64,000 nt of DNA from positions 1-64,000 of the forward strand of contig NZ_BSYI01000002.1 in NCBI RefSeq assembly GCF_030270585.1, read 5' to 3'. Source of the DNA: Paralimibaculum aggregatum. Its GTDB lineage: Bacteria > Pseudomonadota > Alphaproteobacteria > Rhodobacterales > Rhodobacteraceae. This document shows, piece after piece, positions 7,133 to 58,967 of this stretch. Numbering within the stretch: position 1 is the first letter of the stretch; each line of letters opens with the position of its first letter. The notes beneath the pieces were generated by a model. The model saw only the letters and a list, made by a program, of their open reading frames with translations. It was not told the origin of the DNA and ran no database searches. The translations under genes were made by a program, and so were the position numbers.

Positions 7133-7776
7133 GCCCCGGCGGGCCGCCGCGCCGCCCCGGCCAGCAGCCCCAGCGCGCCGCAGAGCGCCAGCCAGCTCGC
7201 CGGCAGCGGCACCGTGCCGAGCCCCGGCTGGAGGGAGGCCACCGCGGCGCTGCTGAGGTTGTATTGTGCCACCAGCGCGCAGGGCCCGCCAAGGCCGCCG
7301 AGGCCGCCGGGATCGTCGAGGCAGCCGCCGACGCTGGTGAGGCCGATGGTCACGCCGTCCGCCGGCATGGCGAACGGCCCGATCAGGTCTCCGAGATCCA
7401 TGCCCACGATGCCCACCGGCGTCGCGCCGTCGCTGCTGCGAAAGGCGGTGATATCTCCGAACGGGCCGACCGTGCCGAGAACGTCGTAGCTGCCGTCGAG
7501 CGCCCCGTCGGCCGTGCCCGAGCCCGAGACGGTGCCGCTCACGGTGAAGTCCACCGCCGTCACGGTCATCGCCACGTCGTCGAAATCGAAGCTGCCGGTG
7601 AGCGTGCCCGCGCCGGTGGAGACCCCCGCAATCACCGGCGGGACACCGAAGGCGATGGTGCCGACATCATAGCTGACGACCGCCGCCGCGGCGGGGGGCG
7701 CCGCGAGACCGAGCGCCGCGGCGATCGCCACAATGCGCCAGGGGCCGGCCCTGCGGGGTTCTCCGTGCCTGTCCAT
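7126..7776 (-). CDS. VPLPA-CTERM sorted secreted protein
   Basis: A 216-residue exported protein with an N-terminal signal peptide (about residues 1-32, ending AAPPAAAA). A Gly/Asp-rich beta-type body follows. The C-terminal sorting tail is VPLPASWLALCGALGLL and a basic end (AARRPAGAQ), which is the PEP-CTERM-like VPLPA signal recognised by exosortase in Rhodobacterales. The body has repeated GTLTGSFDFDD-like strands but no catalytic motif that I recognise. It is convergent with the exonuclease gene and overlaps its end by 7 bp. It is probably processed and attached or released at the cell surface. The start is the ATG 33 bp before the hydrophobic core. Confidence 0.8.
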   Translation of the reverse strand: MDRHGEPRRAGPWRIVAIAAALGLAAPPAAAAVVSYDVGTIAFGVPPVIAGVSTGAGTLTGSFDFDDVAMTVTAVDFTVSGTVSGSGTADGALDGSYDVLGTVGPFGDITAFRSSDGATPVGIVGMDLGDLIGPFAMPADGVTIGLTSVGGCLDDPGGLGGLGGPCALVAQYNLSSAAVASLQPGLGTVPLPASWLALCGALGLLAGAARRPAGAQ

Positions 7777-9250: not shown

Positions 9251-10264
9251 ATGCAGCGCGCGTCGAGCTGGCAGCGCGGGGCGAGCCTCTACTCGCTGAT
9301 CCTGCGCCAGACCTTCCCGCTCCAGGGCGGGGCGGTGCTGCTCGGCCTCGCGATCCCGGCGCTGGCGGTCTATCCGCTGCACCTGCAGCAGCAGATCATC
9401 GACGAGGCGATCCCGGCCGGCGACCTCGCGCTGGTGCTGACGCTCGGCGGGCTCTTCCTGCTGGCCAATGTCGCGCGCTCCGCGCTCAAGTTCTCGGTGG
9501 TCTACCTGCGCGGCTGGATCGCCGCGGTGGTCGCCCGGGTGCTGCGCACCGCGCTGATCGACGCCCAGCGCCGCCGCCCGGAGGCGCAGGCCCGCACCTC
9601 GCTCGGCTCGGTGACCTCGGTGCTCACCGGCGAGGTGCAGCCGCTCGGCGATTTCGCGGCAGAGGCGATCAACACGCCGCTGATCCAGGGCGGCACGCTG
9701 CTCGGGGTGTTCGGCTACATGCTGGTCACCGACTGGCGGCTCGCCGCGATCGGCATCGCCAGCCTGATCGCCGAGGGGGTGGTGACGCCGCTGCTCCAGC
9801 GCATCATCAACCGCCTGACCGCGCAGCGCATCCAGACGCTGCGCAAGGCCAGCCTCGACATGATCGACGCGGTCGATCCCTCGCACCACGTGCTGATCGT
9901 CCATGCGCTCAGGCTGATCCGGCAGGTCTACACGATCCTGTTGCGGATGAACTTCTACAAGGCGCTGCTCAAGGTGCTGCGCAACCTGATCGACCACTGC
10001 GCCGATATCGCGATCATCACGGTCGGGGCCTGGCTGGCGATCCGCGGCGAGATCCAGATCGGCGTGATCGTCGCCTTCCTCAGCGGGCTGCGCGAGGTGC
10101 GCGGCCCCTGGGGCGAGCTCGTGAGCTTCTACCGCCGCCTCGCCGATGCCGGGGTGAAGTACCGCCTGCTGCGGAAGGCGATGAACGGCGACCCGAACGA
10201 CATCGCGACGGCGCTCGAGCCGCAGGTGCCGCGCTCGGTGCCGCCGCGCCGGCGGGACGACTGA
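9251..10264 (+). CDS. ABC-transporter transmembrane domain protein without ATPase domain
   Basis: A 337-residue protein resembling the type-1 exporter membrane domain, with about six hydrophobic segments between residues 25 and 290. The loop sequences follow the MsbA/LagD-type order (PLHLQQQIIDEAIP, then LRTALIDAQRRRP, then LTGEVQPLGDF). The sequence ends shortly after the sixth helix with a basic tail (PPRRRDD), where a fused exporter would continue into the nucleotide-binding domain. No Walker A, signature or Walker B is present, and no separate ATPase gene is adjacent. The ribosome site is GGGAG. It either partners with an ATPase encoded elsewhere or has lost transport function. Confidence 0.78.
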   Translation: MQRASSWQRGASLYSLILRQTFPLQGGAVLLGLAIPALAVYPLHLQQQIIDEAIPAGDLALVLTLGGLFLLANVARSALKFSVVYLRGWIAAVVARVLRTALIDAQRRRPEAQARTSLGSVTSVLTGEVQPLGDFAAEAINTPLIQGGTLLGVFGYMLVTDWRLAAIGIASLIAEGVVTPLLQRIINRLTAQRIQTLRKASLDMIDAVDPSHHVLIVHALRLIRQVYTILLRMNFYKALLKVLRNLIDHCADIAIITVGAWLAIRGEIQIGVIVAFLSGLREVRGPWGELVSFYRRLADAGVKYRLLRKAMNGDPNDIATALEPQVPRSVPPRRRDD

Positions 10265-10319
10265 GCCGCCGCCCCGCTGCCGTGCCGGGCCCGCCGGTCC
10301 GGACCGGGCCCTTGCCGCC

Positions 10320-11621
10320 TCAGGCGTCCTCGAAGCGCGCCATCACCCCGGTCCAGAGCCGCTGTGCCTCGCGGGCGGCAGCGGGGTAGTCCTTGACCAT
10401 GCGGTCGGTCTCGGCGAGCAGGTCCTGCGACGGCTGCGCCGCCTCGGCGACACCGCGGTCCTCGCTCGAGTCGAGGATCGCGTTAAGCCGGGTGCGGTGC
10501 GTCTTGCACTTCTTCGCCGCCTCCGAGAAGCGCTTGGCCTCCTGCACCAGCTTCTTGATGTTCATGTCGAACTTCAGCTTCACGAAACTGCGGTCGGTGT
10601 TGTCGCCGACCACCATGTCGATGGTGTTCTGCGTGCCCCGCGCGGCCTCGAGGGTGCGGCCCATCTTCGAATGGTCGCTCAGGATGTCCTTGTGCAGCTT
10701 CTCGATCTTGGCGATCAGCTTTGCCGGGTCCTGCCCCTGCATCGAGAAGCTCTCGGCGAGATCCAGCGCCGCCTCCGCCTTCGAGAGCTCGGCATCGAGC
10801 GAGCGGATGTAGTCCGAGGCCTCCTTCAGCGTCGCCTCGACGACCTTCCAGACCCTGTGCGCCTCGCCGCCGACCTCCTTCTCGTACCATTTCGGCAGGT
10901 TCGAGATCGGCTGGTTGCTGCGCGCCTTCATGAAGGGCGAGGAGCCGTTCTGCACGTTCGCCTTGTCCCACTCCTTGATCCCGTCGATGATCTCGGTGAT
11001 CTCCTCGACGGCGCGGCTGGCCTTGGCGACCGCCTGGATGTTCTGGAAGGTCTCGCCGGCCCGCTTCGAGGCCTTGGCCTCCTTGGCGCCGTCATTGGCC
11101 ATGCGCACGAGATTGGCGATCGGCTTGGCGTCGGCCTTGTACTTGGCGAGCACCTTCTTCGATTCGCCCACCATCCGCTGGCGCAGCGCCAGATGCTCCT
11201 CGAACTTGCGCTTCTTCACCGGATCGAGCGGGTCCGCGCTCTTCTCCACGTCCTCCGAGGCATCGCCGTCGAAGCTGCCGGCCAGCGCATCGCCCGAGAC
11301 CACCTCCCGGAGCTGCACGATGATCTTCTCCAGCGCGTCGCCGACGATCTTGGCGCTCTTGAGCTGCGCCGAGTTCAGTGCCTTCTTGCCCTCCTTCACC
11401 TCCTTCTTGTGGATGGTGTTGAGGTATTTCTCCGACTTGGTGAGCGCCTTCTCGGCCTTCTTCTGGATATCCTTGGGTTTGCCGGCCTTCACGGCCTTGA
11501 TGTAGTCCTCGAGCAGCCCGCCGATGCCGGAGCTGTGGAAGATCCCCGAGTCGATCTTGCTGACCCCGGTCAGCTCCTTCGACTGCTTCTTGATCGACTG
11601 CCAGTAGGTCGAGATATCCAT
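10320..11621 (-). CDS. Lysine-rich coiled-coil protein of unknown function
   Basis: A 433-residue soluble protein, almost wholly helical by composition, with long charged heptad-like stretches (for example about residues 40-110, 130-215 and 270-330). It has neither a signal peptide nor a membrane segment. It is richer in Lys and poorer in Gly/Pro than its neighbours, which makes it look like a cytoplasmic scaffold or structural protein. The start at 11621 is chosen for GGAGGG just upstream; the in-frame start 27 bp earlier has none. I recognise no family. It is monocistronic, with a CRP-like palindrome about 120 bp upstream. Confidence 0.72.
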   Translation of the reverse strand: MDISTYWQSIKKQSKELTGVSKIDSGIFHSSGIGGLLEDYIKAVKAGKPKDIQKKAEKALTKSEKYLNTIHKKEVKEGKKALNSAQLKSAKIVGDALEKIIVQLREVVSGDALAGSFDGDASEDVEKSADPLDPVKKRKFEEHLALRQRMVGESKKVLAKYKADAKPIANLVRMANDGAKEAKASKRAGETFQNIQAVAKASRAVEEITEIIDGIKEWDKANVQNGSSPFMKARSNQPISNLPKWYEKEVGGEAHRVWKVVEATLKEASDYIRSLDAELSKAEAALDLAESFSMQGQDPAKLIAKIEKLHKDILSDHSKMGRTLEAARGTQNTIDMVVGDNTDRSFVKLKFDMNIKKLVQEAKRFSEAAKKCKTHRTRLNAILDSSEDRGVAEAAQPSQDLLAETDRMVKDYPAAAREAQRLWTGVMARFEDA

Positions 11622-12540: not shown

Positions 12541-12578
12541 AATCCCGGAGTATTTGAGCCTGCGTGAGGTATCTCATC

Positions 12579-13814
12579 ATGCGCATTCTGATGGCAGCAT
12601 GCCTTCTGACGGCGCTCGCGGCACCGGCTTGGGCGGCGAGCGTGACCTTCCTGGGAAAATTCACGGCTAGCGACGGCAGCGGAGGCGACAATTTCGGCTA
12701 TGCCGTCGCGCTCTCCGGCACCACCGCGCTGATCGGCGCCCAGGGCGACGACGACAACGGGTCGGGCAGCGGCGCGGCCTATCTCATCGACACCGTGACG
12801 CTCGCCGAGACCAAGCTGACGCCGAGCGACGGCAGCATAGGCGACAATTTCGGCGCCTCCGTCGCGCTCTCCGGCTCCACCGCGCTGATCGGCGCCCGGT
12901 ACGACGACGACAACGGGGCTTCCAGCGGCAGCGCCTATCTCTTCGACACCGGCACGCTGGCCGAGACCAAGCTCACGGCGAGCGACGGCGCGATGTTCGA
13001 CGAGTTCGGCTATGCCGTCGCGCTCTCCGGCAGCACCGCGCTGATCGGCGCCAGGCATGACGGCGACAACGGCTTCTACAGCGGCTCGGCCTATCTCTTC
13101 GACACCGGCACGCTGGCCGAGACCAAGCTGACACCGAGCGACGGCGCGATGTTCGACGAATTCGGCAGCACCGTCGCGATCGACGGCAGCACGGCGCTGG
13201 TCGGCGCCGCCCGCGACGGCGACAACGGGGCTTCCAGCGGCAGCGCCTATCTCTTCGACACCGGCACGCTGGCCGAGACCAAGCTGACACCGGGCGACGG
13301 CGAGGCCTCCGCCCAGTTCGGCTTTTCGGTCGCGCTCGAAGGGACCACGGCGCTCGTCGGCGCCCAGTTCGACGACGGCAACGGCTCCGCCTATCTCCTC
13401 GACACCGGCACGCTGGCCGAGACCAAGCTGACCGCCGGCGAAGCGCCGGAGAACGACCGCTTCGGCTATGCCGTCGCGCTCGACGGGACCACGGCGCTGG
13501 TCGGCGCCTGGGGCGACGACGCCAATGGCGACGACAGCGGCGCGGCCTTCCTCTTCAACACCACCGACGGGATGCTGATCGCCAAGCTGCTGGCACCGGA
13601 TGGTGTGGAGTCGGACAATTTCGGCCTGTCGGTGGCGGTCTCCGGCAACCTCGTGCTGGTCGGCGCGCCCTATGCGGATATAGGCGACAACCCGGGCCAG
13701 GGCGCCGCCTATCTGTTCCGCATCGAGGCGGATGGCGAGGTGCCGCTGCCCGCGCCCGCATGGCTGCTGCTCACCGGGCTCGGCTCCCTCGCGCTCCTGC
13801 GCCGCCGCCGCTGA
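12579..13814 (+). CDS. FG-GAP-type repeat surface protein with VPLPA-CTERM tail
   Basis: A 411-residue exported protein. It has a signal peptide (residues 1-20, ending APAWAA) and seven repeats of about 52 residues following the pattern DNFGxxVALSGxTALIGAxxDDDNGxxSGSAYLFDTGTLAETKL. A VPLPAPAWLLL tail with a terminal RRRR gives the exosortase sorting signal. The repeats resemble integrin-type FG-GAP beta-propeller blades with calcium-binding Asp clusters (DDDNG), so the protein is probably a seven-bladed propeller displayed at the surface. Start 12579 (ATG) is preferred over an in-frame GTG 15 bp earlier because GAGGT is well placed for it. Central repeats are nearly identical in DNA. Confidence 0.83.
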   Translation: MRILMAACLLTALAAPAWAASVTFLGKFTASDGSGGDNFGYAVALSGTTALIGAQGDDDNGSGSGAAYLIDTVTLAETKLTPSDGSIGDNFGASVALSGSTALIGARYDDDNGASSGSAYLFDTGTLAETKLTASDGAMFDEFGYAVALSGSTALIGARHDGDNGFYSGSAYLFDTGTLAETKLTPSDGAMFDEFGSTVAIDGSTALVGAARDGDNGASSGSAYLFDTGTLAETKLTPGDGEASAQFGFSVALEGTTALVGAQFDDGNGSAYLLDTGTLAETKLTAGEAPENDRFGYAVALDGTTALVGAWGDDANGDDSGAAFLFNTTDGMLIAKLLAPDGVESDNFGLSVAVSGNLVLVGAPYADIGDNPGQGAAYLFRIEADGEVPLPAPAWLLLTGLGSLALLRRRR

Positions 13815-13829
13815 CGGCGCCGGCCTGCC

Positions 13830-14927
13830 TCAGGCCGCCTTGCGGTCGAGGAAGGGATAGTCGGTGTAGCCCCGCGCATCGCCGCCATAGAAGGTATTGT
13901 GGTCCGGCGCGGCGAGCGCGGCGCCGAGGCGCAGCCGCTCCGGCAGGTCCGGGTTGGCGATGAAGGGCCGGCCGAAGGCCACCGCATCGGCGCGGCCCCT
14001 GGCGATCCAGTCCGCCGCGGTGGCCCCGTCGAAATCGCCGTTGGCGATGTAGGCACCGCGCCAGAGCCCGCGCATCCGGGTGAGCGCGGCGGCCTGCTCC
14101 GCGGTCACCTCGGCACCGGGGAACTTCTCCACGACGTGGAGATAGGCCAGCCCCAGCCGGTCGAAGGCGCGGTAGATCTCGGAGAAATGCGCCTCCGGGT
14201 CGCTGTCGCCCATGTCGTTCGCGGTGCCGAAGGGGGAGAGGCGCAGGCCCACCCGGTCGGCGCCCCAGACCTTCGCCACCGCCTCGGTGACCGCGAGCGG
14301 GAATCGCAGCCGCGCCGCCACCGAGCCGCCATAGCGGTCGGTGCGGCGGTTGGTGCGGTCGGAGAGGAACGCGTCGAGCAGATAGCCGTTGGCGCCGTGG
14401 ACCTCGACGCCGTCGAAGCCGGCGGCAAGGGCGTTCTCGGCGGCGCGGACGAAATCCGCGAGCACCCGCGGCAGCTCGTCCGTCTCCAGCGCGCGCGGCG
14501 CCGAGACATCCGCCGGGCCGGTGGCGAGGAAGGTCTGCGCATTGGCCCGGATCGCCGAGGGCGCCACCGGGGCCTGGCCGCCCGGCTGCAGCGCGGTGTG
14601 GCTGATCCGGCCGACATGCCAGAGCTGCAGGAAGATCCGCCCGCCGGCGGCATGCACCGCCTCGGTGATGGCCTTCCAGCCGGCCACCTGCGCCTCGGAA
14701 TGGATGCCCGGGGTGCCGACATAGCCCTTGCCCTCGGGCGAGATCTGCGTCGCCTCGGTGACGATCAGCCCGGCGCTGGCGCGCTGGCGGTAGTATTCCA
14801 GCGCCAGTTCGGAGGGGGTGCCGTCGTCATGCGCGCGGCTGCGGGTGAGCGGGGCCATCAGCACGCGGTTCGGCAGGGAGGTGGCACCGATCGCGAGCGG
14901 CGTGAAGAGCGGGGCGGTTTCGGCCAT
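13830..14927 (-). CDS. Old Yellow Enzyme family alkene reductase (NemA-like)
   Basis: A 365-residue FMN-dependent, NAD(P)H-using reductase of activated alkenes, nitro compounds and related electrophiles. The TIM-barrel begins with LFTPLAIGATSLPNRVLMAPL. The substrate-binding HGANGYLLDAFLSDRTNRR segment carries the family His/Asn pair, and FGRPFIANPDLPERLRLG near the end binds FMN phosphate. Length is typical. Start 14927 is chosen for GGAG 6 bp upstream and the family-typical N-terminus. It is convergent with the FG-GAP gene (15 bp apart) and probably a stand-alone detoxification gene. Confidence 0.95.
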   Translation of the reverse strand: MAETAPLFTPLAIGATSLPNRVLMAPLTRSRAHDDGTPSELALEYYRQRASAGLIVTEATQISPEGKGYVGTPGIHSEAQVAGWKAITEAVHAAGGRIFLQLWHVGRISHTALQPGGQAPVAPSAIRANAQTFLATGPADVSAPRALETDELPRVLADFVRAAENALAAGFDGVEVHGANGYLLDAFLSDRTNRRTDRYGGSVAARLRFPLAVTEAVAKVWGADRVGLRLSPFGTANDMGDSDPEAHFSEIYRAFDRLGLAYLHVVEKFPGAEVTAEQAAALTRMRGLWRGAYIANGDFDGATAADWIARGRADAVAFGRPFIANPDLPERLRLGAALAAPDHNTFYGGDARGYTDYPFLDRKAA

Positions 14928-15195
14928 TGTCAGGCTCCGATATCTGCGTGTCGGGACTGTGCAATCCGGCGAACTGCACGGGCCGCGTGTCATTGCGGTC
15001 CTACACGAAATATGGATGTGAAATCTGTCGGCAAGCGGCCCGCCGCGGAAAGCACCATTGCCAAACGGGCAACAATCCCCCCTTGCATCGGGGCCTGCCG
15101 TGCCCCGTGCCCGGCGCGGGCCGATGGAGGGGGGCGGCGATGCCGGGCGGCTGGCGGCGGCGCCGGGCCGGGCCGGGCAGGCGCGCGGGCTGCCC

Positions 15196-18657
<3,462 letters not shown>

Positions 18658-19655: not shown

Positions 19656-20888
19656 ATGCTCGAATTCCTGCTCTGCTCGGTCTTCACGATCCTGCCGGAC
19701 TACCTGTTCCGCCGCTATGCCCAGGGCAAGCGGCTCGGGCGGGAGATCAACTTCTTCTCGGTCTGGTTCGAGCTGCGCTGGGGCATCACCGCCTGCCTGA
19801 TCCTGACGATCTCGCTGATCACGGTGATCTTCTACTACCACCCCTCCACCTCCAATGCCGGCTCGATCTTCCGCACGGTGTCGATCCTGCCGCAGAAGGG
19901 CGGGCGGGTCTCCGAGGTGATGGTCACGCTCGGCCAGGAGGTCGAGGCCGGCGCCCCGATCTTCCGCCTCGAGGATTCCAGCGAGCGCACCGCCGTGGAG
20001 ACCGCGAAGCGCCGCATCGCCGAGGTCGAGGCCTCGATGGTGGTGGCGAAATCCGAGCTCGCCAAGGCACAGGGCACGCTGACCGAGGCCAGGGCCGCCT
20101 ATGCCGGCACCAAGGACGAGTATGACCGCAAGATCGTGCTCTACAACGAGGGCTCCGCGGCGGTGACCGAGCGCGAGGTCGAGCGGCTGACGATCCTGCT
20201 CGAGCAGCGCCAGGGCGGGATCGATGCGGCGCAGGCCGGCCTGAACGCGGTGCAGAGCCAGATCGACACGCTGTTGCCGGCCCAGAAGGCCAGCGCCGAG
20301 GCCTCGCTGGCCCAGGCCCAGGCCGAGCTCGACAAGATGCTGGTGGTCGCCGGGGTCGCCGGACGGGTCGAGCAGTTCACCCTGCGCGTCGGCGATTTCG
20401 TGAGCCCGGTGCTGCGCCCCGCGGGCATCCTGGTGCCGCGGGATGCCGGGCAGGACTCGATCCTCGCCGGCTTCGGCCAGATCGGCGCGCAGGTCATCCG
20501 CACCGGCATGCTCGTCGAGATCAACTGCGTCTCCAAGCCCTTCACGGTGATCCCGATGGTGGTGACCGAGGTGCAGGACGTGATCGCCGGCGGGCAGTTC
20601 CGGCCCACCGACCAGCTCATCGACCTGCAGGACCGGGCCCCGCCGGGCACGCTGACGGTCTTCCTCGAGCCGCTCTATGCCGGCCAGACGGACGACCTGC
20701 CCCGCGGCAGCCGCTGCATCGCCAACGCCTATTCCAACTTCCACGACGAGATCGCCAGCGGCAATCTCTCCACCGGAAGCTGGCTGTTCTACCACATGGT
20801 CGACACGGTCGGCATCGTGCATGCGGTGCTGCTGCGCATCCAGGCGCTGGTGCTGCCGGTGCAGACGCTGGTGTTCTCCGGCCACTGA
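19656..20888 (+). CDS. HlyD-family membrane-fusion protein
   Basis: A 410-residue periplasmic adaptor anchored by hydrophobic segments near the N-terminus (about residues 2-14 and 43-63). A biotinyl-lipoyl-like strand region follows (SEVMVTLGQEVEAGAPIFRLED, about 87-108), then a coiled-coil hairpin (about 115-215) and a C-terminal beta barrel. HlyD-type proteins bridge inner-membrane transporters to the outer membrane; no ATPase or RND pump is adjacent, so its partner may be the preceding small membrane protein. The final 49 codons and the 3' flank are copied three more times directly downstream. The TGA at 20886-20888 is the only stop kept in the four copies. Confidence 0.88.
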   Translation: MLEFLLCSVFTILPDYLFRRYAQGKRLGREINFFSVWFELRWGITACLILTISLITVIFYYHPSTSNAGSIFRTVSILPQKGGRVSEVMVTLGQEVEAGAPIFRLEDSSERTAVETAKRRIAEVEASMVVAKSELAKAQGTLTEARAAYAGTKDEYDRKIVLYNEGSAAVTEREVERLTILLEQRQGGIDAAQAGLNAVQSQIDTLLPAQKASAEASLAQAQAELDKMLVVAGVAGRVEQFTLRVGDFVSPVLRPAGILVPRDAGQDSILAGFGQIGAQVIRTGMLVEINCVSKPFTVIPMVVTEVQDVIAGGQFRPTDQLIDLQDRAPPGTLTVFLEPLYAGQTDDLPRGSRCIANAYSNFHDEIASGNLSTGSWLFYHMVDTVGIVHAVLLRIQALVLPVQTLVFSGH

Positions 20889-21563
20889 GCCGGTTCCCGC
20901 GGCGGGGCGGAAGCGCTCCGCTGCCCGGCGCCCAGCACGTTGCACGACGAGATCGCCAGCGGCACACTCTCCACCGGCCGCTGGCGGACCTCCCACATGG
21001 CCGACACAGTGGGCATCGTGCATGCATGGCCGACACGGTGGGCGTCGTGCATGCGGCGCTGCTGCGCATCCAGGCGCCGGTGCTGCCAGTGCAGACGCTG
21101 GTGTTCTCCGGCCACCGAGCCGGTTCCCGCGGCGGGGCGGAAGCGCCCCGCCGCCCGGGGCCTGATGCTCTCCACGACGAGATCGCCAGCGGCAATCTCT
21201 CCACCGGAAGCTGGCTGTTCTACCACATGGTCGACACGGCCGGCATCGTGCATGCGGTGCTGCTGCGCATCCAGGCGCTGGTGCTGCCGGTGCAGACGCT
21301 GGTGTTCTCCGGCCACCGAGCCGGTTCCCGCGGCGGGGCGGAAGCGCTCCGCCGCCCGGCGCCCGGCGCGTTGCACGACGAGATCGCCAGCGGCACACTC
21401 TCCACCGGCCGCTGGCGGTTCTGCCAAATGGTCGACACGGTCGGCATCGTGCCTGCGGTGCTGCTGCGCATCCAGGCGCTGGTGCTGCCGGTGCAAACGC
21501 TGGTGTTCTCCGGCCACCGGGCCGGTTCCCGCGGCGGGGCGGAAACACCCCGCCGCCCGGCGC
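20742..21563 (+). repeat. 201-bp tandem array of copies of the HlyD-gene 3' end
   Basis: The unit begins at CACGACGAGATCGCCAGCGG and recurs at 20742 (inside the gene), 20943, 21173 and 21374. Spacings are 201, 230 and 201 bp; 201 bp is 67 codons. Each unit holds the last 49 codons of the HlyD gene plus the 3' flank (CCGGTTCCCGCGGCGGGGCGG). Where the gene has CAC TGA, the copies have CAC CGA, CAC CGA and CAC CGG, so the stop is removed every time. The second unit has gained a 29-bp internal duplication, seen as the ATGGCCGACAC..GTGGGC phrase occurring twice around 20996-21050. That shifts later units out of the gene's frame but keeps the last two in frame with each other. No ribosome site suited to an independent gene was found. 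Confidence 0.9.
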
Positions 21564-22493
21564 CTAGCGCAGGTCGCCGAAGGCGCTGCCGGCAAACATC
21601 CCCCGCCAGTCCGCCGCATGGGCCGGGCCGGCCACCTCGAAGCGCTCGATCGCGGCGCGGTGGCGCGCGCCGGGCAGCGGCACCCGCCCGTAGAGCCTGA
21701 GCGCCACCGGCAGCCCGTCGCCCGGAAGGCCGAGCGCCACCAGCCGCTCGCCGGCGCCGCCATCGCCCCGGGCCGCCCCCGCCGGGGGCCGCACCCCGCG
21801 CCCGGAGCCGGTGACCCGCGTGCCGAAGCCGAGCCGAAGATGCACCCGCTCGATCCGCCAGCCGGGGCGCAGCGCGCCGCGGTCGAGCAGCACCAGGTTG
21901 CAGTCCGCCCCGCCGGCCAGCGCCCGGTGCCAAACCACCACCGCGCCATGCCCGATATCGAGGTTGCAGAAGGTGCCCGCCAGCAGCCCGTAGGCGGCAT
22001 GGTCGAAGCCGAGCCCCTGCGCATAGCCGAGCACGCTCGCGGCATCGACCGAGAACCGCGCCGGGGCCGGCCGGGGCGCCGGCCCGGCCAGCGTCGCTGC
22101 CGCCAAGCCGGGCCGGAGATGCGCCGCCGCGAGGCCGCCGGCCGGCCCGACCGCCGCGCCCAGGGCCCGGCCGAGCGCGGCCGTGCCGGCGCGCACCGCC
22201 TGCCGCACCGCCCCGGACCCCGCGGCAGCGGCCGTCGCGGGAGCGGCTTCGGATGCCGGCGGCGGCGAGACGACGGTTGTCCGCCAGGGCGCGCCCTCCG
22301 CCTTCGCCGCGGCGATATCGGCGACCGGCACGGCGGCGCCGGGCCATTGCCAGCGCGCGTCCGGCGGCCAGAGGATCGCCGGGCCGAGCACCGAGACCGC
22401 CAGCATCGCCACTGCCCCGAGGCAGGCGAAGCCCAGCCCCGCAAGGCTCAGCCCGGCCATCCGGACCGCCCGCCGCCACAGATCGTCGCCCAT
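21564..22493 (-). CDS. Membrane-anchored periplasmic protein of unknown function
   Basis: A 309-residue protein with one N-terminal membrane segment (about residues 8-38), a Pro/Ala-rich linker (about 60-150) and a globular C-terminal domain of about 160 residues. The C-terminal domain has alternating strands (VVVWHRALAGGADCNLVLLDR, LRPGWRIERVHLRLGFG). Start 22493 is chosen because GGAGG lies 7 bp upstream; an ATG 6 bp earlier would touch the ribosome site. I do not recognise a family. A CtrA-type box lies 84 bp upstream, suggesting cell-cycle or motility-linked control. The gene is convergent with the repeat array and ends exactly where the array ends. Confidence 0.72.
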   Translation of the reverse strand: MGDDLWRRAVRMAGLSLAGLGFACLGAVAMLAVSVLGPAILWPPDARWQWPGAAVPVADIAAAKAEGAPWRTTVVSPPPASEAAPATAAAAGSGAVRQAVRAGTAALGRALGAAVGPAGGLAAAHLRPGLAAATLAGPAPRPAPARFSVDAASVLGYAQGLGFDHAAYGLLAGTFCNLDIGHGAVVVWHRALAGGADCNLVLLDRGALRPGWRIERVHLRLGFGTRVTGSGRGVRPPAGAARGDGGAGERLVALGLPGDGLPVALRLYGRVPLPGARHRAAIERFEVAGPAHAADWRGMFAGSAFGDLR

Positions 22494-33323: not shown

Positions 33324-34556
33324 ATGGCGGCGATGGATGGCGAGCCCGAGGACCCCTCTGCCGGGCCAGCGGCGGAGGACGGCGCCGAGCTGCAGGTCGA
33401 GCTGCACCGCGGCATGGAGAGCATCCCGGCGGCCGACTGGGATGCCTGCGCGGCGCCCGAGCGCGCCGATGGCGGGCGCCCGCTGCAACCCTTCCTGACC
33501 CATGCCTGGCTCGCCGCCTTCGAGGAGAGCGGCTCGGCCACGCCCGAGACCGGCTGGGCGCCGCACCACCTCGTCGCCCGCATCGACGGGCGCGCGGTGG
33601 CGGCGATGCCGCTCTATCTCAAGGGCCACAGCCAGGGCGAGTATGTCTTCGACCATTCCTGGGCCCATGCCTTCCACCATGCCGGCGGGGACTACTATCC
33701 CAAGCTGCAGTCGGCGGTGCCCTTCACCCCGGCCACCGGCCCGCGGCTGCTGGTGCGGCCGGATGCGCCGGTGGCCGCCGACAGCCTGCGCGGCGCGCTG
33801 CTGCAGGCGGCGGTGGAGATCGCCGAGGCCAGCGAGCTCTCCTCGCTGCACGTGACCTTCTGCACCGAGGCGGAATGGCGCCTCGGCGGCCGGCTCGGCC
33901 TGCTGCAGCGCACCGACCAGCAGTTCCACTGGGAGAACCGCGGCTATGGCAGCTTCGAGGGTTTCCTCGCCGATCTGGCCTCGCGCAAGCGCAAGGCGGT
34001 GCGGAAGGAGCGCGCCCGCGCCACCGAGAACGGCGTGACCATCCACTGGCTCACCGGCGACGACATCCGCCCCGAGCACTGGGACGCCTTCTGGCGCTTC
34101 TACCAGGACACCGGCAGCCGCAAATGGGGCACGCCCTATCTCACCCGCGCCTTCTTCGAGATCGCGCAGGCGCGGCTGCGCGACGACATCCTCCTGGTGT
34201 TCTGCGCCCGCGAGGGCCGCTGGATCGCCGGGGCGATGAACGTGATCGGGCGGGAGGTGCTGTTCGGGCGCTACTGGGGCTGCACCGAGCACCACCCCTG
34301 CCTGCATTTCGAGACCTGCTACTATCAGGCGATCGACTTCGCCATCGCCGAGGGGCTGGCCCGGGTCGAGGCCGGCGCGCAGGGCGATCACAAGCTGGCC
34401 CGCGGCTATGCGCCGGTGACCACGCATTCGCTGCACCACCTGACCCATCCGGGGCTGCAGGCGGCGGTGCGGCGCTATCTCAAGGGCGAGCGCCAGGCGG
34501 TCGCCGAGGAGAGCGCGGCGCTGGCGCGGATGACGCCGTTCCGCAAGGGCGACTGA
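33324..34556 (+). CDS. FemAB/GNAT-like N-acyltransferase family protein (DUF482 type)
   Basis: A 410-residue cytoplasmic protein of the GNAT superfamily branch annotated as DUF482 or peptidogalycan biosynthesis. Conserved-looking blocks are FLTHAWLAAFEESG, EYVFDHSWAHAFHHAGGDYYPKLQ, ENRGYGSFEGFLADLASRKRKAVRKERA and the C-terminal GCTEHHPCLHFETCYYQAIDFAIAEG followed by EAGAQGDHKLARGYAPV. The acyl acceptor is unknown. The N-terminal 25 residues are acidic and low-complexity, so a slightly later start is possible. A 16-18-bp repeat tract follows the stop. Confidence 0.85.
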   Translation: MAAMDGEPEDPSAGPAAEDGAELQVELHRGMESIPAADWDACAAPERADGGRPLQPFLTHAWLAAFEESGSATPETGWAPHHLVARIDGRAVAAMPLYLKGHSQGEYVFDHSWAHAFHHAGGDYYPKLQSAVPFTPATGPRLLVRPDAPVAADSLRGALLQAAVEIAEASELSSLHVTFCTEAEWRLGGRLGLLQRTDQQFHWENRGYGSFEGFLADLASRKRKAVRKERARATENGVTIHWLTGDDIRPEHWDAFWRFYQDTGSRKWGTPYLTRAFFEIAQARLRDDILLVFCAREGRWIAGAMNVIGREVLFGRYWGCTEHHPCLHFETCYYQAIDFAIAEGLARVEAGAQGDHKLARGYAPVTTHSLHHLTHPGLQAAVRRYLKGERQAVAEESAALARMTPFRKGD

Positions 34557-34645
34557 GCGCAGGGGCGACCGGCCGCAGGGGCGACTGGGCGCAGGGGCGA
34601 CAGGCCGCAGGGGCCACAGGCCGCAGGGGCGACCGCGCGCAGGCA
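34557..34645 (+). repeat. 16-18-bp tandem repeat (CGCAGGGGCGAC type)
   Basis: Directly after the FemAB-like stop, the phrase (G/C)CGCAGGGGC(G/C)AC(C/T/A)GG recurs five to six times with a 16-18-bp spacing. It is non-coding and lies between convergent genes. Confidence 0.7.
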
Positions 34646-49867: not shown

Positions 49868-52189
<2,322 letters not shown>

Positions 52190-52192
52190 CCG

Positions 52193-52221
52193 CGGGCGCC
52201 CCGGCCGGCCCGGGGCGCCCG
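52193..52221 (+). terminator. Perfect 12-bp terminator hairpin after clpA
   Basis: CGGGCGCCCCGG (52193-52204) pairs perfectly with CCGGGGCGCCCG (52210-52221) around CCGGC, 4 bp after the clpA stop. It is followed by TCTCCGCTCC, with no true T-run. Confidence 0.6.
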
Positions 52222-52381
52222 TCTCCGCTCCTCCCGTCCCCGCCTCGCCGCACGCGGCGCCGGCGGGCGCGCATCCCGGGCCCCACCCGCCCGGGCAGCG
52301 CGGCGCCAGGCACCGCCGTCCCGCGGCCCCCCAGCCCGGGATGCGCGCCCGCCCCCTCCTCCCCTCCAGCGGAGCCGCCAG

Positions 52382-53470
52382 ATGCACCCTCCGATCCCTC
52401 GTGCAACGCCGCCGCGCCGGCGCGGGCCCCGAGCGGTGGGGGAGCGTGAGCCCTGCCACCGGGCGCGGCGCCGGCCGGGGTGGGTGGGGCTCGGGGCCCG
52501 CGCCGGCGCGGCGCTCGCCCTGCTCGCCGCGCTCGCCCCGGAGGCGCTGGCCGGGCCGCCCGGCCTCGCCTTCCCCGCCGCCTGCAGCCTCGGCACCGAC
52601 TGCCACATCCAGCAGCTCACCGACCGCGACCCCGGCCCCGGCGCCGCCGATCACCGCTGCGGCCAGCTCGTCTATGACGGGCACAAGGGCACCGATATCC
52701 GCCTCGTCGACCGTGCCGCGATGCTGCGCGGCGTCGATGTGCTGGCCGCCGCGCCCGGCGTGGTGCGCGGCCTGCGCGACGGGATGCCGGACCGCCGGCT
52801 CGGCGACCCGGAGGCCCCGGCGCTCGCCGGGCGGGACTGCGGCAACGGCGTCGCGATCCGCCATGACGGCGGCTGGGAGACCCAGTACTGCCACCTCGCC
52901 GAGGGCAGCATCGCCGTGCGCAGGAGCGACCGGGTGACCGCCGGCCAGCGGCTCGGGCGCATCGGCCTCTCCGGCGCCACCGAGTTCCCGCACCTGCATT
53001 TCGCGCTGCGCGATCCGGAGGGCCGCCCGGTCGACCCCTTCGACGGGCAGACCGCCGACACCCCCTGCGGCAGCGGCGGCGCCGCGCTCTGGGCCGAGCC
53101 CCTGCCCCATCCCCCCGGCGGGCTGCTCGGGCACGGCTTCCTCGACCGGATGCCGGACTATGCCGAGGTGCGCGCCGGCACCGTCGCCCGCGACGCGCTG
53201 CCCGCCGATGCGCCGGCGCTGGTGTTCTGGGTCTCGGCCTTCGGGCTGCTCGCCGGCGACCGGCTCGCGCTCACGCTCTACGGCCCGGACGGCGCGGTGC
53301 TGGCCGAGGCCGAGGACCCGCTGCCGCGGAACCGCGCCCAGCTCTTCCGCGGGGTCGGGCGCAAGGCGCGCGGCGCCTGGCCGGAGGGCCGCTACGAGGG
53401 CCTCGCGGTGATCCGCCGCGACGGCACCGAGATCGCCCGCCGCCGCGCGGTGCTGGCGGTGGTGCGCTGA
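52382..53470 (+). CDS. M23-family peptidoglycan endopeptidase (LytM-like)
   Basis: A 362-residue exported zinc metallopeptidase. After a long basic N-terminus and a hydrophobic segment (about residues 38-56), the lysostaphin-type domain (about 75-210) carries the metal ligands H and D in DGHKGTDIRL, YCHLAEG and H-x-H in FPHLHFAL. The catalytic set looks complete, so it should be an active murein hydrolase. The C-terminal 140 residues form a beta-type domain of unknown role. The start at 52382 follows GGAG; later GTG or TTG starts in the basic N-terminus are possible. Confidence 0.85.
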   Translation: MHPPIPRATPPRRRGPRAVGEREPCHRARRRPGWVGLGARAGAALALLAALAPEALAGPPGLAFPAACSLGTDCHIQQLTDRDPGPGAADHRCGQLVYDGHKGTDIRLVDRAAMLRGVDVLAAAPGVVRGLRDGMPDRRLGDPEAPALAGRDCGNGVAIRHDGGWETQYCHLAEGSIAVRRSDRVTAGQRLGRIGLSGATEFPHLHFALRDPEGRPVDPFDGQTADTPCGSGGAALWAEPLPHPPGGLLGHGFLDRMPDYAEVRAGTVARDALPADAPALVFWVSAFGLLAGDRLALTLYGPDGAVLAEAEDPLPRNRAQLFRGVGRKARGAWPEGRYEGLAVIRRDGTEIARRRAVLAVVR

Positions 53471-53735
53471 GCCGCACGCCGCCGCGGGCGCCGGGGCCCA
53501 TCCCGGGCGGCCGCGCCGCCGGAACCGCCGCACCGGCCCTGCGGCGCCGGACAGGACGCGCCCCGCGCCGCAGTCGTCGCCGCGCCCGCCGCCGCGCCCG
53601 CCGTGCCGCCACGCCCCCACCCGGATCAGCCGCGCCCTGCCCCGGCGCCCCGCCACAACACGCTGCCCGGGCGGGCGACGCACGCACCCCGCCGGACCCC
53701 GCCACCAGGGACCGCGAAGCCGCGCACGGTCGAGG

Positions 53736-56105
53736 CACGCCGTCCGGGCCGGAGGACGATGCAGACGCGCCGCCAGCGCAGGTCACCGGAAAGCAAGGCA
53801 GGCCGTGCCGCCGGACCGGTTTGGCCGGGAGCCTGACGCGGGCCCCCGCGGGCAACCTGCCAGAGGCCCGATGCAGCCGCGCCACCGAAGCACACTGCCG
53901 GAGAACGAAGCGAGCCTGCCACCGGACCGGTTCGGCAGGGAGCATGGCGCAAGCACCCCGCAGGACATGCTGTCGGAGGCGCGATGCAGCAGCACCACCG
54001 GAGCCCTCTGCCGGCGGGCGGTGCTGGCGTTCGGCAGGGAGCATGGCGCAAGCACCCCGCAGGACATGCTGCCGGAGGCACGATGCAGACGCACTACCGG
54101 AGCACACTGCCGGCGGACGGTGCAGGCGTGCCGCCAGACCAGTTTGACAGGGAGCGTGGCGCAAGCCCCCCGCAGGGCATGCTGCCGGAGGCGCGATGCA
54201 GCAGCGCCACCGGAGCCCTCTGCCGGCGGGCGGTGCTGGCGTGCCACCGGACCGGTTCGGCAGGGAACGTGGCGCGAGCCCCCCGCAGGGCAACCTGCCA
54301 GAGGCGCGACGCAGCCGCACCACCGGAGCCCACTGCCGGCGGACGGTGCTGGCGTGCCGCCGGACCGGTTCGGCCGGGCGCATGGCGCAAGCGCCCCGCA
54401 GGGCATGCTGCCGGAGGCGCGATGCAGCCGCGCCACCGGAACCCCTATCAAGGACCGTGATGCACGCGCACCGTCGGACACGCCGTCCGGGACAGGCTTG
54501 CCCGCAGCGCAGGGACACGCCGCCGGCGGGGCAACAGCACCGCGCGCCGTGAGGCACCCTGCCGGGACAAGGTTCCAGCCGCGCGCCACTCCGGCACGTT
54601 GCGGGGGCTGCACTGCAGCCGCGCACCGCCGAAACGCACCGCGGCGCAGCATTGCGGCCGCACGCCGCCGTGGCACGGTCTCGCGAGGAGCGATCCGCGC
54701 ACACCGCCAGCACACATTGTAGGCGGGCGATGCAGGCGTGCAGCCGGAGGGCATCGTCAAGCGGCGAGGCACGCGCGCGCCGTGGGGCACGCTGTCCGGA
54801 AGGACGCACAACCGCGCCGGAGTGGCGCGCCGCCGGCGGCAACAGCGCTGAGCGACAAGGCCCCCCTGTCGCGGGAGAGATGCCGCCGCGCACCGGCAAT
54901 ACGCACCGCGGGGCGATCTCGTGGCCACTGGCACCGGAATGCATCGCAGGGCGGTCTTGCGGCCGCGCGATGTCGGCGTACGGTTTCGGGGGAGATCTAT
55001 CCGCGTACACCGCCGGCGCACGGCACCAATGGGCGATGCAGGCGCGCGGCCGGAGGGCATCGTCAGGGGGCGAGGCACGCGCCCCATGGGGCACGCCGTC
55101 CGGAGGGGTGCTTGCCCGCCGCGCGGAGAGATGCCGTTGGCGGCAACAGCGCCGCACGCCATGAGGCGTCCTGACGGAGCATGGCTGCTGCCGCGTGCCG
55201 CGGGCGCGCACCGCTGGGCAGCATTGAGGCAGCGTACCGCCCGGACGCACTGTGGGGCGATATTGTGGACAACGCACCGGAGCGCATCGCGGGGCGGTGT
55301 TGCGACCGCGCGCTGCACGGCCACGGGTCCGAGGGGAGCGAACCGCTCGCACCGCTGGCGCAGGTCACCGGAGGGCGATGCAGGCGTGCGGCCGGAGGGC
55401 AACGTCAGGGGGCGAGGCACGCGCCCCATGGGGCACGCCGTCCGGAGGGGTGCTTGCCCGCCGCGCGGAGAGATGTCGCCGGCGGCGACAGCGCCGTACG
55501 CCATGAGGCATCCTGTCGGAGCATGGCTGCTGCCGCGTGCCGCGGGGGCGCATCGCTGGGCAGCATTGAGGCGACGTACCGCCCGGATGCACTGTGGGGC
55601 GATATTGTGGACACACGCACCGGAGCGCATCGCGGGGCGGTGTTGCGACCGCGCGCCGCACGGCCACGGGTCCGAGGGGTGCGATCCGCTCGCACCGCTG
55701 GCGCACATCGCCAATGGGCGATGCAGGCGCGCGGCCGGAGGCCATCGCCAGGCGGCAAGGCGCGCGCACCATGGACACGCTGTCCGTAACCCCGTGAGGA
55801 CAAAACCCGCGCCGTGGTGGCACGCCACTGGCGGCAACGGCGCCGCATGCCGTGGGGCTCCCTGCCGGGACCAAGCTGCCGCCGTGTGGCGCAGGGGTGC
55901 ACCACCGGGCGGCATTGTGGCCGCGCACCGCCGGGAGGCACCGAGGGGCGGTGTCGTGGCCATGCGCACCGGGCGCAGCGCGAGGCGGTGTTTCGGCCGC
56001 GCGCTGTCGGGGCGCGGCTTCGGCGAGAGCGACTAACGCGCACCGCCGGCGCACATCGCAGCCGGGCGATGCTGGTGCGCTGCAGGAAGGAGGTGCAGGC
56101 ACGCC
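53736..56105 (+). repeat. Higher-order repeat, unit 304-342 bp
   Basis: The landmark CACGC(C/T)GTCCGG recurs at 53736, 54479, 54788, 55092, 55434 and 55776. A second landmark GGGCGATGCAGGCG recurs at 54725, 55031, 55373 and 55716, with a decayed copy at 56064. Spacings are 304-348 bp except the first (743 bp), where the 113-bp array is inserted. Units starting at 55092 and 55434 are nearly identical over most of their length. Inside a unit, GGGC-phrases recur about every 37-39 bp (55216, 55255, 55292). Confidence 0.85.
53820..54470 (+). repeat. 113-bp minisatellite, six copies
   Basis: Aligned on the phrase ACCGGTTCGGCAGGGA, copies fall at 53820, 53931, 54030, 54143, 54256 and 54369. Spacings are 111, 99, 113, 113 and 113 bp. 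The 99-bp unit has lost about 14 bp (the TGCCACCGGACCGG part). Other shared phrases are GGCGCAAGC-CCCCGCAGG, CTGCCGGAGGCGCGATGCAG and CACCGGAGCC. Because 113 is not a multiple of three, no single reading frame is conserved. Confidence 0.88.
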
Positions 56106-56205
56106 GGCGGAGAACACCGCCGGGCGGAGTGATCTGCGCCTCCGCTGCCGCGGCATGCAGGGGCGCGGAGGGAAGCTGGCGCGCACGGCCCGGCACCTCC
56201 CGGGG

Positions 56206-57190
56206 CGGCGGTTCGGCCGGACGTTTCGGGGCGCGCCGAGGCGGGTGAGGCTCGCAGGCCGGCGGCACTTCGGGGCGCGCCGGGGCGGCTGAGGCGACCG
56301 GACCGCCGGCGCTAACAGGCGCACCGGGGCGGGCGCCGCGGGCAGGCCGGCGGCGCTACCAGACCCTCGGAGGAGGGTGAGGCGACGGGGCCGGCTGCGC
56401 TGCGTCGCGCCGGGGCGGATGAGGCACCCGGGCCGGTTGCGCTACGTGGCGCGTCGAGGCAGGCGAGGCGGTCAGGCCGGTTGCGCTGCAGGGCGCTGGG
56501 GCGGGTGAGGCAGCAGGGCCGGCCGCGCGACAAGGCGTGCCGAAGCGGGTGAGGCGGGCATGAAGACCGCGCCACGGCGCGCGTCGAGGCAGGCGAGGTC
56601 GTCGGGCCGGTAGCGCTGCAACGCGGGTCGCGGCGGGGGCGGCGGGCAGGCCTGCGGCACTGCGGGGCGCGCCAGGGCGGGTGCGGCGGGCAGGCCGCTG
56701 CGCTGTGGGCGCGCGCCGGGGCGGGTGAGGCGTCCAGGCCGCGGTGCCACGGGGCGCGCCGAGGCTGGCGAGGTGGTCAGGCCGGCGGCGCTATGAGGCG
56801 CGCTGAGGCGGGCGCGGCGGGCAGGCCGGCGGCGCTTCCGGGCGGGTCAGGGCTGGCGCGGCTGGCAGGCTGCTGCGCTGTGGGGTGCGTCGAGGCGGGT
56901 GAGGCGGCCGGGCGGCGCTGCGGAGCGCGCAGGCGAGGGTTGGCCGGTTGCGCCGCGAGGGCGCGCCGGGGCGGCCAGGCCGAGCTGCGGCGCGAGGAGG
57001 CGCCGGGGGCGAGGCCGACTGCGGCGCCGGCGGCGAGGCCGAACTGCGCCGCCAGTGGTGAGGCCGGTAGCGGCGTCGGGGGCCTGGCCGAGCTGTGGCA
57101 CCGGGGGTGAGGCCGGTAGCGGCGTCGGGGGCCGGGCCGAGCTGCGGCACCCGGGGCCGGGCCGAGCTGCGGCGCCGGGGGCCTCGCCCC
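56206..57190 (+). repeat. About 42-bp degenerate minisatellite, some 20 copies
   Basis: A consensus like GGCGCGCCGGGGCGGGTGAGGCGG-CAGGCCGGCGGCGCTG recurs with a spacing of 38-46 bp through this stretch, with copies diverging freely. Towards the right end it grades into GGGGGCGAGGCCGANCTGCGGCGCC phrases. No coding frame is conserved. Confidence 0.8.
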
Positions 57191-57425
57191 GCGCCAACGC
57201 CGTTGCGCGGACGGCCCGAAAGGGAAACCGTCCGCCTACGCAACGCCAACACCACTCCACTCAACAACACCGGCCCGGTCCGGGGACCGGAGACCGCCGT
57301 GACCGGGCGCGAATTCGTGCCCACCGCCACCTGTGCCTTGAGAGCTACGGAAATTCGGTTAAGAAAAGGTGAAGACCCGGCGTGTGGCGCGCCTGTGAAC
57401 ACCATCCCTTGGGGGGACGGGGCCA

Positions 57426-58109
57426 ATGGACAACGGCATCTGGGAGACCCTGCCCCCGGGCAGCATGCTGCGTGCCTGCGGGCCCGACGGCTTTGCCGCG
57501 CTGACCGCGCACTGGAGCGAGCTGTCGGTCGCGGCCGGCACCTCGATCGTCAGCATCGAGGACCACGACAACGACGTCTATTTCATCCTCGCCGGCCGGG
57601 TGCGCGCGACCACCTATGCCAGCAGCGGGCGCGAGGTGGCGTTCTCGGAGCTGCGGCCGGGCGACAGCTTCGGCGAGCTCGCGGCGATCGACGGCGGCCC
57701 GCGCTCGACCAATGTCGTCGCGCTGACCGCGGTGCGGCTGGGTCGGCTCCCGGCGACGCAGTTCAACGCGCTGATCGACGGCGACCGGGCGGTGATGCGC
57801 GCCGTGCTGCAGCTGCTGGCGGGCCGGGTGCGTGGGCTCTCGGCGCGGATGGTCGATGTCACCACGATGAACGCGCGCAAGCGGCTGATCGCCTTTATGC
57901 TGCAGCTCTCGGAGCCCGACGGGGCGGACCGCGCGGTGATCCCGGCGCTGCCGACGCAGCAGGCGCTGGCGGATGCCATCCTCGGCCAGCGCGAGGCGGT
58001 GGGGCGCGAGATGAGCCGGCTGCGCAAGAAGGGCTGGATCCTGCGCGAGGGCCGGCGGCTGCGCATCCTCAGCGTCTCCCGGCTGCGCGCCGAGCTGGCC
58101 GCGGACTGA
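57426..58109 (+). CDS. Crp/Fnr-family transcriptional regulator (Crp-like)
   Basis: A 227-residue regulator. The N-terminal cyclic-nucleotide-binding domain (about residues 15-130) has the Crp phosphate-binding cassette FGELAAIDGGPRSTNVV, with G-E-L and R-S both kept. Only one Cys (C18) is present, so it is not an FNR-type iron-sulfur sensor. The C-terminal winged helix has recognition helix GQREAVGREMSRL, whose R189, E190 and R194 correspond to the DNA-contacting Arg, Glu and Arg of E. coli Crp. It therefore probably binds TGTGA-type sites in response to cAMP. It is flanked on both sides by gene-free repeat blocks. Confidence 0.92.
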   Translation: MDNGIWETLPPGSMLRACGPDGFAALTAHWSELSVAAGTSIVSIEDHDNDVYFILAGRVRATTYASSGREVAFSELRPGDSFGELAAIDGGPRSTNVVALTAVRLGRLPATQFNALIDGDRAVMRAVLQLLAGRVRGLSARMVDVTTMNARKRLIAFMLQLSEPDGADRAVIPALPTQQALADAILGQREAVGREMSRLRKKGWILREGRRLRILSVSRLRAELAAD

Positions 58110-58149
58110 CCGGGCCGCCGGCCGCAGCGCGGGGGCGCGGCACCGGGGC

Positions 58150-58910
58150 GGCAGCGCCGGGGGCAGAAACACCGGGGCCGCAGCACGGGGCTACTGCACG
58201 GGGCCGCAGCACCAGGACCGCAGCGCGGGGGCCGTGGCAAACGGGGGCCGCAGCGCGGAGGTCGCACCACAGGGGCCGCACCACACGGGCCGCAGCACAC
58301 GGGCCGCAGCACCAGGACTGCAGCGCGGGGGCCGTGGCAAACGGGGGCCGCAGCGCGGAGGTCGCGGCACTCGGGCCGCAGCACACAGGCGGCAGAGCGG
58401 GTGGCCGCGGCACCGGAGCCGCAGCACTCGGGCCGCGACCGCGGGGCCCGCGACCCGGCCGCAGGGCGTCCCGCAACGGGACGGCCGGCACGGCGGCCGC
58501 AGCACACGGGCCGCAGCACCAGGACTGCAGCGCGAGGGCCGTGGCAAACGGGGGCCGCAGCGCGGAGGTCGCGGCACTCGGGCCGCAGCACACAGGCGGC
58601 AGAGCGGGTGGCCGCGGCACCGGGGCCGCAGCATTTGGGCCGCGACCGCGGGGCCCGCGACCCGGCCGCAGGGCGTCCCGCAACGGGACGGCCGGCACGG
58701 CGGCCGCAGCACGGGGGCCGCAGCACCGGGGCCGCGACCGAGGGGCCTGCGACCCGGCCGCAGGGAGTCCCTCAACGGGACGACCGCACGGCGGCCGCGG
58801 CACACGGGCCGCATCACCGGGGCCGCAGCGCTCGGGCCGATCCCCGCGGGGCCCGCGGCCCGGCCGCGGGGTGTCCCGCGGCGGGACGGCCGGCACGGGG
58901 GCGCGGCTTG
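58150..58910 (+). repeat. GGGCCGCAGCAC minisatellite with 207-bp higher-order unit
   Basis: Short 13-15-bp phrases of the type GGGCCGCAGCAC(C/A) fill the stretch. A larger 207-bp unit is duplicated: CAGGACTGCAGCG at 58313 and 58520, and GCAGGGCGTCCCGCAACGGG at 58461 and 58668. Shorter derivatives follow at 58760 and about 58860. Each unit carries a hairpin CGTCCCG-CAA-CGGGACG. The block separates the Crp gene from the polysaccharide operon, and no ORF with a plausible protein is seen. Confidence 0.85.
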
Positions 58911-58967
58911 ACACCGGCCATGCGGCGCCGCAAACCGCGCCGAGGGGATCCGTGGGAGCACAGAGCG

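Follow-up and report, generated by a model that had tools for sequence, protein, structure and literature searches.

The stretch analysed here (the window) comprises the first 64,000 nucleotides of contig NZ_BSYI01000002.1 of the marine bacterium Paralimibaculum aggregatum, and the gap in it that separates an M23 peptidase gene from crp (53,471-57,425) is occupied by a real, non-coding, higher-order tandem array of a known kind, the bacterial satellites. The satellite-like repeats span about 3.7 kb and form four consecutive zones with units of 113 bp, 304-349 bp, 44 bp and 25/49 bp (Table 1). Tandem-repeat detection, which had been proposed as a check in the initial annotation of this DNA, has found layered arrays both with Tandem Repeats Finder (TRF) and with lag analysis. 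The unrepeated stretch next to crp is presumed to be the promoter region of this gene, and a second repeat block (58,046-58,924) with a 207-bp unit (97% matching) and a 14-bp sub-unit, absent from the initial annotation, lies downstream of it.

Table 1. Features of the window that bear on the repeat arrays, in order of position.
Feature	Coordinates	Strand	Basis
Gene (putatively HlyD-like) whose 3' end seeded an array	19656..20888	+	no Pfam hit
Young array in convergent gap, tandem copies of the tail of the preceding gene	20676..21601	.	
Small 16-bp array at gene end and in gap to convergent gene	34541..34643	.	TRF, gene model
ClpA-type AAA+ ATPase gene, synteny anchor	49868..52189	+	Pfam AAA_2, ClpB_D2-small, Clp_N; relatives
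M23 peptidase gene (alternative start 52,382)	52484..53470	+	Pfam PF01551; gene model
Gene-free gap holding the arrays, M23 peptidase gene to crp	53471..57425	.	gene model; lost codon-phase contrast
GC-rich short 12/29-bp repeats, soon past the M23 stop codon	53559..53616	.	TRF
113-bp tandem array, 5.8 copies; one spacing of 99 bp (copy 14 bp shorter)	53804..54444	.	TRF, copy spacings
Higher-order array, spacings 304/306/342/343/348/349 bp	~54460..56120	.	copy comparison
44-bp array, 15.6 copies, multiples 88/130/174	56227..56921	.	TRF, lags
25/37/49-bp array (25/49-bp part 56,999-57,183)	56942..57183	.	TRF, lags
Unrepeated, less GC-rich stretch (GC 0.665, no TRF row) directly upstream of crp	57191..57425	+	
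Crp/Fnr-type regulator gene	57426..58109	+	Pfam cNMP_binding, HTH_Crp_2
Second gene-free array gap, crp to UDP-glucose/GDP-mannose dehydrogenase gene	58110..58967	.	TRF, Pfam, phase contrast, shuffles, gene model

The repeat layers agree only in part with those described earlier. The 113-bp unit was recovered by TRF, and it consists of about three phrases of 36-39 bp as read by eye, a reading backed by lags 37, 39 and 76. Phrases of 38-39 bp had been proposed; the significant lags in this layer are 37 (z 9.5), 39 (z 6.6), 13 (z 6.6) and 76 (z 6.0), whereas lag 38 is non-significant (z 0.4). Units of 304-342 bp are likewise present as copies standing 304-349 bp apart, although 304 bp, the spacing of some copies, does not reach significance as a lag across 53,804-56,120 (z 0.2). 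One pair of long copies spaced by 342 bp is 90% identical over 286 nt, in comparison to 60-76% for the remaining long copies, which points to layered growth. The separate family described as having a 42-bp unit was found to have one of 44 bp (lag 44 z 12.4; lag 42 z 0.2).

The gene-free, satellite-like and nested nature of the block has been borne out. No gene was called in the gap by a codon model trained on the same genome, and the GC contrast among codon phases, about 0.33-0.63 in the flanking genes, falls to 0.02-0.14 in twelve 300-bp windows covering 53,701-57,300. The fraction of bases lying in 12-mers repeated within 2 kb is 0.544, far above 200 dinucleotide shuffles (mean 0.042, maximum 0.084). 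No conserved protein came to light, as Pfam gave no match to any of the four open reading frames of the block that were tested, the lengths of open frames show no excess over shuffles, and among 40 relatives searched only short matches (26-93 bp) were found, in eight genomes, with none in the other 32. Elsewhere in its own genome the block has six matches, all short or weak, and Rfam at gathering threshold gave none over the whole window.

These results also bear on the idea that the arrays are decayed protein genes or remnants of repetitive surface-protein genes, which is very unlikely. Long open frames, up to 750 codons from stop to stop, could be taken as traces of such genes, but equally long ones occur in 9.7% of 300 shuffles, no codon-phase signal was detected, neither 113 nor 44, the unit lengths, is divisible by three, and the differences between two compared copies are spread over the codon positions as 12/10/7. 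The surroundings in related genomes offer the same idea some ground. In all four relatives placed in the same genus (G001-G004), clpA and crp are separated by 1.66-1.83 kb, and the intervening gene encodes a pyridine-nucleotide oxidoreductase, as identified by Pfam in G001 and G004 and, with the G001 protein as tblastn query, in G002, G003 and G004. In P. aggregatum (G000) this gene is missing at the locus, and the M23 peptidase gene together with the arrays stands in its place (window 52,190-57,425 compared with relative loci L116, L120, L125 and L130). The oxidoreductase protein nevertheless finds no match in the gap when searched against window positions 52,001-58,200. On the other side of crp, the distance to the following dehydrogenase gene is about 0.25-0.33 kb in G004 versus 858 bp, mostly repeats, in the window.

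The block is one of many local arrays in this genome, most of which lie downstream of genes. Blocks were delimited as regions of at least 150 bp dense in 12-mers that recur within 2 kb, and were classed by gene overlap. Besides the window, three sets of stretches were sampled: set A (20 stretches, six of them picked via a BLAST match to the block), which with the window enters the counts of array class and orientation and is excluded from density, and sets B and C (40 stretches, 800 kb), hand-picked at regular positions, not drawn at random, with the sequence unseen beforehand. In sets B and C, 22 mostly non-coding blocks cover 19,223 bp or 2.4% (bootstrap over stretches 0.9-4.1%), whereas 35 stretches (700 kb) of the same-genus relatives G001-G003 contain none, and TRF arrays number 61.2 and 2.9 per Mb, respectively. 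In total, 40 non-coding blocks were found in the 1.26 Mb examined of the P. aggregatum genome, and each of the first 35 blocks found was more repetitive than any of its 50 shuffles. A set of 80 named clpA loci totalling 1.52 Mb, almost all assigned to alphaproteobacteria in their titles, was free of blocks. Twenty further genomes of the family (G005-G024), sampled with one stretch apiece (387 kb in all), yielded a single candidate of 1,054 bp, which was counted as non-coding but reads, as judged by eye, as duplicated small genes. The gene caller is a codon model made for this analysis, and when trained singly on the control loci it calls too few genes (coding fraction 0.64), so that non-coding counts are inflated there and the bias opposes the contrast. 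The relative G004 is a fragmented bin of which 33-38 kb was sampled, and it is left out of the same-genus totals.

All 22 non-coding blocks of sets B and C sit in 10 of the 40 stretches, which could reflect chromosome position or replicon. Stretches that hold arrays do not differ clearly in coding GC from those that lack them (p 0.13; third codon positions, p 0.01). At 2.4% the arrays would amount to about 0.13 Mb, which cannot explain why this genome is about 1.1-1.5 Mb larger than those of G001-G003. The candidate among the other family genomes (L215, 234-1287, from G005) appears by eye to hold two or more small genes in tandem that are almost identical, are spaced by about 265 bp and begin like genes for secreted proteins.

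The assembly used is a draft of 201 contigs and 5,505,440 bases, the same figures as those given for strain NKW23T, with an N50 of 105,891, in the published species description (PMC11426391). The draft state, and the fact that two contigs (C13 and C66) terminate within a repeat block, might suggest that the arrays were created by the assembly. This is hardly credible, because the copies diverge by 3-40%, which is not something that assemblers invent, arrays within genes keep the reading frame, and blocks are not overrepresented at contig ends (one of 20 ends taken). Near-identical copies have possibly been collapsed, in which case true array lengths may be greater.

The arrays share almost no sequence. 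Among 35 blocks, chosen for this comparison by codon-phase contrast, only two of 595 pairs gave a match with an E value of 1e-6 or lower, and the block at 56,177-57,219 is a member of each. There is no common period either; the pooled lags 42, 22 and 13 are slightly raised and the top lags vary from block to block. Since the blocks are nearly all unrelated and the matches of the 53-57 kb block elsewhere are short or weak, nearly every array has arisen in place. A mobile or transposed satellite family (REP/RAYT-like, carried by miniature inverted-repeat transposable elements, or copied by a retroelement) might be thought of because many sites are occupied in a single genome and one reverse transcriptase is present, but it is highly improbable. 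Dispersed arrays with one repeat sequence, as expected of such a family, were not found in the pair comparison, which largely refutes any spread based on sequence, and the block matches no plasmid or phage. The Y1_Tnp transposase (PF01797), by which repetitive extragenic palindrome (REP) systems, the bacterial interspersed mosaic elements and their REP-associated tyrosine transposases (RAYT), are recognized, was detected in none of the four genomes G000-G003. The sole reverse transcriptase of G000 forms a fusion with Cas1, is encoded close to a RAMP gene and hence belongs to CRISPR. This locus (L255, 3211-9633, contig C61) is apparently of type III, and the repeat blocks at 6680-7423 and 9702-10662 of the same stretch may be CRISPR arrays.

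Arrays within genes and outside them obey different rules. The period was found to be divisible by three in all 18 coding arrays in comparison to 25 of 62 non-coding ones (Fisher p 1.8e-6; one mixed array omitted). By this in-frame rule, a single duplication process seems to be active everywhere, with selection retaining only its in-frame products in genes. Outside genes, the arrays prefer convergent gaps. Among gaps of at least 150 bp in the window and sets A-C, those with at least 100 repeat bases number 16 of 47 where the genes converge, 12 of 137 where they are codirectional and 2 of 111 where they diverge (convergent versus divergent p 4e-8, in a count which includes set A, partly picked for similarity to the block). 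Set C alone gave 3 of 11, 0 of 45 and 1 of 36, respectively. The block reaches the stop codon in 14 of 25 block-bearing gaps of sets A and B and the window, with edges blurred by the 200-bp smoothing. Avoidance of promoters by selection and an origin of arrays where convergent transcripts end both fit this placement.

The same preference for convergent gaps would be expected if the arrays were functional and selected, serving to insulate transcription units, to terminate transcription or to bind a nucleoid protein. The folding of 43 array units (mean z -0.53, with 14% below -2) is also nearer to that of 3' flanks (-0.67) than of 5' flanks (-0.06). We consider a function of this kind unlikely, since the blocks have almost no sequence in common, their periods and units vary, the relatives do without arrays at the same locus, and the 113-bp unit is nearly devoid of RNA covariation (two-sided change in 1 of 29 predicted pairs over six copies). 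Hairpins as seeds of the arrays were also considered, and the case for them is weak; the units are barely more structured than shuffles and resemble ordinary 3' flanks.

The specific regulatory roles proposed in the initial annotation are accordingly left unsupported. A role tied to crp or to the polysaccharide operon is unlikely, as many such arrays exist across the genome, and the single covarying pair lends nothing to the suggestion of a structured RNA source. In sequence alignments, the scarcity of matching block pairs makes a common protein landing site less likely. The proposal of a hypervariable spacer is plausible.

A few arrays are born from gene tails. The clearest case follows the gene at 19,656-20,888, which we take to be HlyD-like: its last approximately 150 bp, stop codon included, recur downstream at 99, 93 and 75% identity. 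A full-length homologue was found in 4 of 24 relatives searched (G001, G002, G009 and G011), where the tail of the protein is single and the 4.2-kb loci have no repeat block. The gene end is therefore ancestral and the downstream copies are derived. Of the non-coding blocks chosen by gene overlap for this test, which form a list overlapping but not identical with that of the pair comparison, five of 40 have units matching the 3' end of the neighbouring gene (five of 34 in the first list, none of six in set C), and two further blocks of the 34 showed merely 26-30 bp matches inside the neighbouring gene. The 53-57 kb block is probably older than the gene-tail arrays, judging by the divergence of its copies.

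Taken together, the arrays probably result from a lineage-specific excess of local tandem duplication, whose products are kept where they do least harm, after stop codons, and are re-amplified into higher-order arrays. In the P. aggregatum lineage, tandem duplication of segments of about 10-500 bp would be much more frequent, or their loss much rarer, than in relatives. Duplications within genes would survive solely if in frame, and those past stop codons, notably between convergent genes, would be nearly neutral and so could persist and diverge. Composite units may then be duplicated again, giving the nested layers of 13, 38, 113 and 342 bp, and the 53-57 kb block would be an old, repeatedly re-amplified product of local duplication downstream of a gene. 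The copying step may be replication slippage, template switching or unequal exchange. The nested periods, the unshared sequence, the in-frame rule and the placement are all accounted for by local tandem duplication and the subsequent re-amplification of composite units.

Several observations weigh against this explanation. No gene difference between G000 and G001-G003 able to account for the excess, such as a repair defect, was found among the protein families searched: MutS_V and RecJ are present and Y1_Tnp and Ku absent in all of these genomes alike, and SbcD gave sub-threshold matches alone, in three of the four. The density of arrays is uneven (3.8% in set B, 1.0% in set C), and the controls are not fully empty, as one 130-bp non-coding TRF array occurs in the clpA loci and G004 holds one 166-bp non-coding block in 33 kb. 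A gene-tail origin is not detectable for 35 of the 40 non-coding blocks, the 53-57 kb block and all six of set C included. Divergent gaps of set C are no poorer in arrays than codirectional ones, and arrays in codirectional gaps are not clearly biased towards the 3' side, to which 7 of 11 lie nearer (p 0.27). The species is represented by a single genome.

It is conceivable, although doubtful, that replication, repair or the handling of transcription-replication encounters has changed in this lineage, turning it into a tandem-duplication mutator favouring convergent transcript ends. If so, the arrays would be a genome-wide fossil record of duplication sites, and gene tails would rank among the chief places where satellite DNA originates in bacteria.

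Non-coding repeats are commonly believed to be eliminated from bacterial genomes, and the view that this block is unusual among bacteria is shared here. Minisatellites such as the mycobacterial interspersed repetitive units and variable-number tandem repeats (MIRU/VNTR) of mycobacteria have units of tens of bp and are used for typing, whereas the arrays of P. aggregatum are sometimes kb-long, nested and different from block to block (no MIRU match was searched for). In eukaryotic higher-order satellites, composite units are re-amplified as blocks, a likeness to the present arrays, which are in turn far shorter, dispersed after genes and without a shared monomer or a known centromere role. The genome of Leptospira interrogans is likewise rich in intergenic satellites with long units, but these mostly belong to transposed families, whereas the P. 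aggregatum blocks are nearly all unrelated. In the survey by Subirana and Messeguer (2019; PMC6749651), satellites are also unique local repeats, the coding ones mostly with periods in multiples of three, and those of C. difficile are mutually unrelated, as nearly all are here.

Densities given in that survey allow a rough comparison. Among bacteria the top value is that of chromosome II of B. pseudomallei, whose 23.0 satellites per Mb consist mostly of short repeats; Leptospira has 9.68, and the archaeal Methanosarcina reaches 89 (PMC6749651). Streptomyces coelicolor, at 72% GC, has 4.2 (PMC6749651), and high GC alone is therefore insufficient for such a density. An approximate re-implementation of the SATFIND rule (a decamer occurring at least four times in 800 nt with at least 60% equal spacing), unchecked on the original genomes, which is why the comparison is rough, gave 38.9 per Mb (18 satellites) for the window with set A and 37.5 (15) for set B of P. 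aggregatum. Of these 33 satellites, 22 are non-coding and 23 have units longer than 30 nt. The controls gave 3.3 per Mb (one satellite) in 300 kb of G001-G003 and none in the other two sets. Of the arrays on either side of crp, this approximation picks out 54,008-54,445 and 58,204-58,924 and passes over the 304-349-bp, 44-bp and 25/49-bp zones. The block is moreover a non-coding satellite and not an amino-acid repeat, a distinction which the SATFIND rule does not demand.

The density thus looks very unusual for a bacterium across the genome, with informative intermediates. No report of a comparable genome was found in the literature searched, a search from which most subscription papers were out of reach, and within it the genus is mentioned in the species description and a names list alone; the word 'repeat' is absent from the main text of the former. 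P. aggregatum appears to amass satellite arrays, some of them kb-long, at dozens of sampled sites, and the sampled parts of three relatives have none. The stages from gene-tail duplication to nested arrays co-occur in it, and this provides a tractable setting to study how satellite DNA starts and what suppresses it. The bacterium has been cultured and its type strain is deposited.

Two loci may be mentioned in which repeats enter genes. A large block at 12547-15771 of stretch L096 begins within a gene as 48-bp repeats (12731-13731) and continues as non-coding repeats of 92/106 bp. In the window itself, a gene for an FG-GAP repeat protein (12642-13814) contains in-frame DNA repeats of 156/312 bp, a coding counterpart of the duplication habit.

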